Source: Hydrogenovibrio sp.
Lineage (GTDB): Bacteria; Pseudomonadota; Gammaproteobacteria; Thiomicrospirales; Thiomicrospiraceae
Assembly: GCA_015484555.1 (NCBI GenBank)
Contig: WFMZ01000027.1
Location: forward strand, 1-64,000
Length of the DNA: 64,000 nucleotides
Direction: 5' to 3'
In this document: piece after piece, positions 22,310 through 24,769 of the stretch
How positions within the stretch are numbered: the first letter of the stretch is position 1
Layout of the letters: each line of letters opens with the position of its first letter
Position numbers and translations under genes: made by a program
Notes under the pieces: model-generated
Seen by the model: the letters and a program-made list of their open reading frames with translations, nothing else
What the model was told of the DNA's origin: nothing
Database searches by the model: none

Positions 22310-23356
22310 ATGTTTCGTAAAATTATCGGACTTTTTTCTAACGATTTATCAATCGATCTAGGGACTGCAAACACTCTTATTTATGTACGAGGAAAAGGAA
22401 TGGTTCTAAATGAACCTTCTGTCGTTGCTATTCGAACTAGCAAGCTGGGCTCTAACTCACGCTCTATTATTGCAGTGGGTGAAGGCGCAAAACTAATGCT
22501 TGGAAAAGAAAACCAAAAAATTGAAACTATTCGTCCCCTTAAAGATGGCGTGATTGCGGATTTTGAAGTGACTGAGAAAATGCTTCAGCACTTTATCCGC
22601 AAGGTTCACGAAGCTAGATTCTTTCAACCGAGCCCTCGTGTATTAGTTTGTGTTCCTTGTGGGTCAACACAAGTAGAAAGACGCGCTATTCGTGAGTCTG
22701 CTGCGGGTGCGGGTGCTCGCGAAGTTTACTTAATTGAAGAGCCTATGGCGGCCGCCATTGGCGCAGGTATGCCGGTCAGTGAAGCAACGGGTTCTATGGT
22801 GGTTGACATTGGTGGTGGAACAACAGAAGTTGCCACGTTATCGTTGAACGGTATTGTTTGGTCAGATTCAGTCAAAGTGGGTGGCGATCGCTTTGATGAT
22901 GCCATTATCAAATATGTTCGACGTAACTACGGCATGATAATCGCTGAAGCCACCGCTGAAAAAATTAAAAAAGAAATTGGCACGGCTTACCATGAAATTG
23001 AGCCTAAAACCTTAGAAATACACGGTAGCAATATTGCTGAATCGGTTCCTCGTCGCTTTACGTTAAATAGTAACGAAGTGTTAGAAGCTTTGAAAGAGCC
23101 TTTGGCATCAATTGTTAGCGCAGTTAGAACCGCTTTAGAGCACACTCCACCAGAGCTAGGGGCTGACATTGCTGAACACGGTATTGTGTTAACGGGTGGG
23201 GGCGCCTTACTTCGCAACTTAAATACCCTGCTTTCAGAAGAAACAGGTATACCCGTTATTATTGCTGACGACCCTTTAACCTGTGTTGCTCGTGGCGGCG
23301 GACGCGCCTTAGAAATGATGGATGAGAAAGGCATTGATGTCTTCTCTTTTGACTAA
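22310..23356 (+). CDS. mreB: Rod shape-determining protein MreB
   Basis: [28 protein letters not shown]. Confidence 0.98.
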
Positions 23357-23378
23357 TTTCTGCACAGGATTTTAAGCC

Positions 23379-24269
23379 ATCGCCAAAACAAATACGACAC
23401 CACAAAAAGAGGGAACACAGTTCATCCTCTTTTTTGTTTTGTGCATTTCCTTAATGGTGTCCGACCACTATAGTCATGCCTTATCCAGTGTTAGAAATTT
23501 ATTATTAACGGCTATCGAACCCATCGAAAAGCTCGCCACCCTCCCGATAACAGCCTACCATTTTTTCCAGCAAGACTATGAAACCATTGAAGATTTAAAA
23601 CAAGCCAACCAGCGATTAGCCACTGAAAACCTACTTTTAAAAGCTGAACAACAACAACTTCCCCAGCTTCGCTTGGAGATTACTCGCTTAAATCAACTGC
23701 TAAATACGGCGAGTCAACTAGAACGCTCTAAGATTCAAATTGCCAATATTTCTCATTACAATTTAAGCCCTTATTCACAAACCTTCATGCTTGACAAAGG
23801 TTATTTAGATAAGGTCGACCCCAACCAATGTGTGATTGATTCCCATGGTTTAATTGGCTTAATTACACAAGTAACCCCAACAAGCGCTAAAGTCCAGTTA
23901 ATTACCGATGCCGATATTGCCATCCCGGTGAGAATACAGCGAACAGGACAACGAGGCATTGCTAAGGGCAGCCATTTTAATGAACTTTCAGTACAATTTA
24001 TTGCTAAATCTAGCTCTGTTAATATAGGCGATTTAATTGTTACTTCCGGCTTAGGCTCTGTGTACCCTAAAGGTTACCCTGTTGCCCGAGTAACCAGCGT
24101 GACTAAGCCAAAAGACCAGCCTTACCTTGAAATAAAAGCGCGCCCCGTGGCTAAAATTGGACAAGCAGATAAGGTATTAATTTTATCAAATGATATCAAA
24201 ATCCCTAGCAATTCCCTATTTCAAGGAGATAGCAAGTTAAAGTTGATTAGGAATGGAGCAGGAAAATGA
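23379..24269 (+). CDS. mreC: Rod shape-determining protein MreC, apparent ATC start
   Basis: ORF track starts at TTG 23439, inside the TM helix. In-frame extension reads (I)AKTNTTPQKEGTQFILFFVLCISLMVSDHYSH from ATC 23379, with AGGA at 23366-23369; in-frame stop at 23373 and no ATG/GTG/TTG before 23439. Confidence 0.75.
   Translation: MAKTNTTPQKEGTQFILFFVLCISLMVSDHYSHALSSVRNLLLTAIEPIEKLATLPITAYHFFQQDYETIEDLKQANQRLATENLLLKAEQQQLPQLRLEITRLNQLLNTASQLERSKIQIANISHYNLSPYSQTFMLDKGYLDKVDPNQCVIDSHGLIGLITQVTPTSAKVQLITDADIAIPVRIQRTGQRGIAKGSHFNELSVQFIAKSSSVNIGDLIVTSGLGSVYPKGYPVARVTSVTKPKDQPYLEIKARPVAKIGQADKVLILSNDIKIPSNSLFQGDSKLKLIRNGAGK
23404..23435 (+). terminator. Intrinsic-terminator-like hairpin inside the mreC 5' coding region
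   Basis: AAAAAGAGGGAAC-ACA-GTTC(AT)CCTCTTTTTT, long stem followed by U tract, 48 nt after the mreB stop. Confidence 0.6.
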
Positions 24270-24769
24270 GTGATAAAGTATACGTATTAGAGTTTTGCCA
24301 AATAAAATGGTTTTTAATATTTGGGTATCTAGCTGCATTTACGTTCGACTCTATGTTGAAGTTAAGCTTTGATATTTACTTTGCTCCCTCCTTAACCGTT
24401 TTATTACTTTTATTTTGGACCTCTCAACTTACCTGCAAAACACACTTATTTACGGCCTTCTTAATTGGAATTTTTACCGATACTGCCATGAATACGCCCT
24501 TAGGTTCTCATGCCCTTATATTCATATTACTGGTCTTTTTTATGCTACGCATTCGCCTCAGTTTTAAAAGCTACCCAGCATGGCAACAAGCCATTACTAT
24601 TGGCCTTTACCTAACCTTTGCCCAGGTTTTAAGCTGGGTTATTTTCGAACCCGTTCTGCCAAACAGCCAACTCATCAGCTTCTGGCTAGTCCCTTGGGTT
24701 TCTGCTATTTTGTGGCCATTTTTATATAAGACAATGCTCACACTTTCCCATAGAGCCATGTTTGACTGA
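24266..24769 (+). CDS. mreD: Rod shape-determining protein MreD
   Basis: Multi-TM, overlaps mreC stop, mreBCD order. Confidence 0.88.
   Translation: MSDKVYVLEFCQIKWFLIFGYLAAFTFDSMLKLSFDIYFAPSLTVLLLLFWTSQLTCKTHLFTAFLIGIFTDTAMNTPLGSHALIFILLVFFMLRIRLSFKSYPAWQQAITIGLYLTFAQVLSWVIFEPVLPNSQLISFWLVPWVSAILWPFLYKTMLTLSHRAMFD

Follow-up and report, generated by a model that had tools for sequence, protein, structure and literature searches.

The start of mreC in the Hydrogenovibrio cluster

The cell-shape gene mreC is essential in many bacteria. Its copy in a 64,000-nucleotide stretch of Hydrogenovibrio sp. DNA (contig WFMZ01000027.1; hereafter, the window) raises the question of where its translation begins and, should this be at a codon other than ATG, GTG or TTG, what such a start might do. 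The identity of the gene is supported by PF04085 and TIGR00219 matches, both above their cut-offs, and by its position between mreB and mreD. The relevant features, all on the forward strand, are as follows.

22310–23356 (+): mreB, first gene of the cluster, with a canonical ATG start (PF06723, E = 2e-141)
23366–23369 (+): Shine-Dalgarno (SD) sequence AGGA, 9 nt before the ATC; its position is kept in relatives
23373–23375 (+): in-frame TAA two codons upstream of the mreC start, ruling out an upstream start
23379–23381 (+): ATC, inferred mreC initiation codon, from the sequence and comparison with relatives
23379–24269 (+): mreC, 296 codons plus stop when counted from the ATC (TIGR00219, 148.9 bits against a cut-off of 92.75; PF04085, E = 5.9e-42)
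23439–23441 (+): TTG, the choice of a start caller limited to ATG/GTG/TTG; inside the transmembrane (TM) segment and not a likely start
24266–24769 (+): mreD (PF04093), whose ATG overlaps the mreC stop (ATGA); probably translationally coupled

The ATC follows the mreB stop at 23356, with 22 nt between them, and the frame reads TAA (23373) GCC ATC (23379) GCC AAA ACA AAT, with no in-frame ATG, GTG or TTG between the TAA and the TTG at 23439. The latter is codon 21 of the ATC-started frame, and initiation there would cost MreC its 20 N-terminal residues, among them the basic ones and roughly half of the TM segment. A sequence-only reading had placed the start at ATC 23379, with the TAA at 23373 and the AGGA at 23366–23369, and re-reading of the sequence found this description exact. 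It had also taken ATG GCC to be the expected start, which does not hold, as ATG is nearly absent from this site in close relatives.

Close relatives carry ATT or ATC at the same codon

A search of the window's family covered 63 genomes and yielded 60 loci with a readable mreC start region; an order-level search returned the identical set. The aligned start codon was ATT or ATC in 56 of the 60 loci (29 ATC, 27 ATT and 4 ATG; one of these loci, L041, was assigned by eye as ATT), an agreement well outside what chance would produce, and ATA was not found among them. The ATG starts were confined to four loci of a single genus (L045–L048, genus g2), every other sampled genus having ATT or ATC. On the MreC tree, these four loci group away from the other family members. 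An SD 4-mer preceded the ATT or ATC codon in 54 of 55 family loci. In many of the genomes, an in-frame stop lies only one to five codons upstream, as in TAG ACC ATC (L007), TAA GTC ATC (L017) and TGA CCT ATC (L022), which leaves no room for an alternative mreC start there.

The window comes from a single draft genome of 73 contigs, so a miscalled ATG had to be considered, and the earlier reading had asked for a check of C against G at 23381 and for a comparison with relatives. That comparison leaves practically no place for a sequencing or assembly error, because ATT or ATC stands at this codon in independent genomes of related species, and we regard the error as ruled out. In one other genome (L062, G066:C1), the mreC match is split into two overlapping pieces and includes a stop, which hints at a frameshift or an assembly error there.

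Non-canonical mreC starts extend over many families

The feature reaches across the class, beyond a single genome, a point that had been missed when only the window was read. We combined the family loci with a class-wide PF04085 search, 80 loci from the GTDB genome collection and a phylum-wide search; in the collection scan, the single window protein gave no match as a query, whereas an alignment query did. The resulting non-redundant set comprised 256 loci, nearly all from Gammaproteobacteria, of which 197 start with ATT, ATC or ATA (ATH), 56 with ATG, GTG or TTG, and three with GTT. Since the class sample was drawn from Pfam matches with the better scores, and the collection scan yielded the nearest relatives of an ATH-start query, these counts describe the sample and give no class-wide rate. 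For approximately thirty-five loci that lack the N-terminal motif, the start was assigned by eye, and the most ambiguous cases were omitted. Sorted by family code, the loci with ATH starts represent 46 families, and in five of these canonical starts are present as well. The common MreC N-terminus is (M/I)KPLF..GPS; at the aligned site, E. coli K-12 has ATG AAG CCA, and ATG is also found in several other loci of similar sequence.

Several loci are unusual in other ways. The three GTT loci (L143, L227 and L247; GTT AAA CAC/CTG) have GGAG/GAGG-type SD sequences and no ATG, GTG or TTG before the GTT; a GUU start would be still rarer. Three Legionella-type loci (L118, L131 and L316) read GTG ATT TCC TCT near the mreC start, with adjacent GTG and ATT codons, and L316 overlaps mreB; they were set aside as ambiguous, along with several cut or divergent loci. 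A further locus, L189 (JABDRC010000352.1), is titled 'Halobacteria archaeon' but carries a typical gammaproteobacterial mreC, so the genome is probably mis-binned or mislabelled.

The ATH codon as the site of initiation

Because ATT, ATC and ATA all encode isoleucine, initiation cannot be concluded from their interchange alone, and the codon could in principle be an internal isoleucine of a frame that opens at a more upstream site or at some other non-standard codon. The case rests instead on the lack of an upstream canonical codon, the SD sequence and the onset of the coding pattern. In 178 of 197 loci, the stretch from the upstream in-frame stop to the ATH codon contains no ATG, GTG or TTG; in the 37 ATH loci whose stop is at most three codons upstream, this holds without exception (37/37). 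An SD 4-mer at −16 to −4 of the ATH codon is present in 167 of 197 loci, compared with 29–33 in control windows shifted upstream, and its modal spacing of 5–8 nt suits initiation at that codon.

The substitution pattern changes at the same place. Comparison of 69 non-overlapping sequence pairs gave differences of 0.091/0.067/0.358 at codon positions 1/2/3 over codons 2–12 and of 0.40/0.36/0.39 over codons −5 to −1, so that codon periodicity is absent upstream. Synonymous and nonsynonymous codon differences numbered 227:101 in codons 2–12, as opposed to 57:830 in codons −20 to −6. The onset of codon-type substitution coincides exactly with the ATH codon. Against the upstream stops, the SD spacing and this pattern, an internal isoleucine is the least credible of the readings that would move the start.

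Only marginally better placed, and still very improbable, is a true start at a downstream TTG, GTG or ATG (TTG 23439 in the window), with the upstream part left untranslated. Gene callers do pick such codons, for example in P. aeruginosa (CP123788.1), where mreC is called from GTG 267. Yet codons 2–12 are under strong protein-level constraint, their (I/M)KPLF..GPS product is shared with E. coli, where ATG begins it, and the downstream candidates cut into the TM anchor and occupy no conserved place. The comparative data, namely the relatives, the SD sequence and the coding pattern, strongly support the earlier proposal that mreC of the window begins at ATC 23379, a conclusion drawn from sequence comparison.

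Third-base changes and the neighbouring genes

The MreC tree, for which the first ten codons were left out, shows at least 48 changes of the third base of the ATH start among T, C and A, and 15 interchanges between ATH and canonical starts. In general, AUG-to-AUU switches are very rare, at 1 of 61,358 (PMC5622118). The pattern suggests that G is avoided at the third base of the mreC start, although no formal neutral model underlies this inference. SD sequences were commoner before ATH mreC starts (85%) than before canonical ones (39%); a trade between start strength and SD strength on the tree was not significant, with only five well-supported independent pairs.

The non-AUG codon might also be tolerated without being selected, if ribosomes finishing mreB re-initiate at the adjoining mreC and codon identity hardly matters. 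The gap of 22 nt in the window would allow this, but among the loci it spans 2 to 408 nt, with a median of 73, and the mreC loci retain a strong SD of their own. The third base, moreover, alternates freely between T, C and A but seldom becomes G. The neighbouring genes have canonical starts available (mreB in 132/132 loci, mreD in 130/131), and mreD, which is still closer to its upstream gene, retains ATG, GTG or TTG. We therefore consider mere tolerance unlikely, if less so than a misplaced start.

A probable selected weak start

We favor the reading, at a probability of roughly 85%, that the conserved AUU/AUC/AUA codon of mreC is a selected weak start, with the low yield, the dependence on IF3 and the selection for MreB:MreC:MreD balance being inferred. 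The AUC at 23379 would be read by initiator fMet-tRNA, with the well-placed SD bringing the ribosome to mreC, and its mismatched third base, discriminated against by IF3, would make initiation inefficient. Together, the SD and the weak codon may hold MreC output low relative to MreB, the product of the first gene of the cluster. MreD would probably follow the MreC level because mreD overlaps the end of mreC; of the 130 relatives in which mreD was identified, 110 show this overlap with the mreC stop.

The start position, its conservation, the lack of alternatives, the SD and the normal starts of the neighbours are observed; throttling of MreC through an IF3-discriminated codon is a plausible inference that fits the biology of infC and sigR and the damage done by surplus MreC in E. 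coli. Initiation at any codon but ATG, GTG and TTG is repressed by IF3 (PMC5472188). In E. coli, MreC has been estimated at ~180 copies, and cells that overproduce it become misshapen unless they also express MreD (PMC7793260). Against a selected weak start, it must be said that no protein or ribosome-profiling data stand behind it, and that the low yield and the IF3 dependence are inferred without experiment. The ATG of E. coli and its relatives also implies that MreC can do without the weak start.

More speculatively, and with the odds against it, the AUH start could place mreC alongside infC under the influence of IF3 level or fidelity and so tie the capacity for cell-wall elongation to the initiation machinery in most Gammaproteobacteria, a link that enterics and others would have lost by switching to AUG.

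Comparison with known weak starts

The gene for IF3, infC, is the textbook case of an AUU start. It is autoregulated and starts with ATT or ATC, the codon being AUU in E. coli and AUC in Streptomyces (PMC5472188); in the window's family, ATC was read in 31 of 31 loci. Like infC, mreC has a conserved non-AUG start that belongs to this codon class and is preceded by an SD; unlike infC, it encodes a cell-shape protein, implies no autoregulatory loop and varies among ATT, ATC and ATA. An R-C-Y triplet at −3 to −1 was noted in infC (31/31, loci of one family and hence non-independent) and in ATH mreC loci (67/197), compared with 5/56 canonical mreC and 2/61 mreB AUG starts.

In E. coli, the AUU start of pcnB lowers the expression of a protein that is harmful in excess, which resembles the role proposed for mreC. 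The window's genome may not share this start: its likely pcnB frame has an ATG near the beginning, with ATT codons before it (relatives were not compared). The sigR gene of Streptomyces has an IF3-repressed GTC start that sets its ratio to RsrA (PMC5472188). As inferred for mreC, a weak start there sets stoichiometry within one operon, and both genes are mis-annotated in genomes; sigR differs in its codon and phylum, and IF3 dependence has been shown for sigR only. Sugar regulators of Enterobacteriaceae keep GTG or TTG starts through selection to limit expression (PMC11445065). These are likewise non-ATG starts with a limiting effect of the kind inferred for mreC, but they are ordinary weak starts, unlike the IF3-excluded AUH codons.

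Significance and annotation of mreC

To our knowledge, very few natural AUU, AUC or AUA starts have been characterised, and that of mreC, spread over dozens of families, would rank among the most widespread. In the open literature, we found no report of a non-canonical start for mreC; the search did not extend to subscription papers or to a list of non-AUG genes on arXiv (Gvozdjak and Samanta 2020, cited in PMC11445065). Judged by sequence comparison, mreC would thus be a new and unusually widespread addition to the genes with IF3-discriminated start codons. The findings point to a widely conserved brake, usually mis-annotated, on the translation of a key cell-wall protein, whose low yield is inferred, and mreC offers an immediate test bed for the purpose of weak starts.

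The annotation of P. aeruginosa illustrates the practical side. In CP123788.1 (L315), the region reads TAG GAG CGG ATC ATC AAA CCG CTA TTC TCC AAA GGC, and the likely mreC start is ATC 219 (or the adjacent ATC 216). The annotated GTG 267 lies 16 codons past ATC 219, so that the cytoplasmic N-terminus is missing from the deposited protein. Localisation, interaction and expression studies built on truncated mreC genes may need revisiting. In a structural paper on P. aeruginosa MreC, the first 14 residues are said to include the cytoplasmic part together with the TM region (PMC8137920); this residue numbering, we infer, fits the truncated annotation, which has ~14 residues before RFD.
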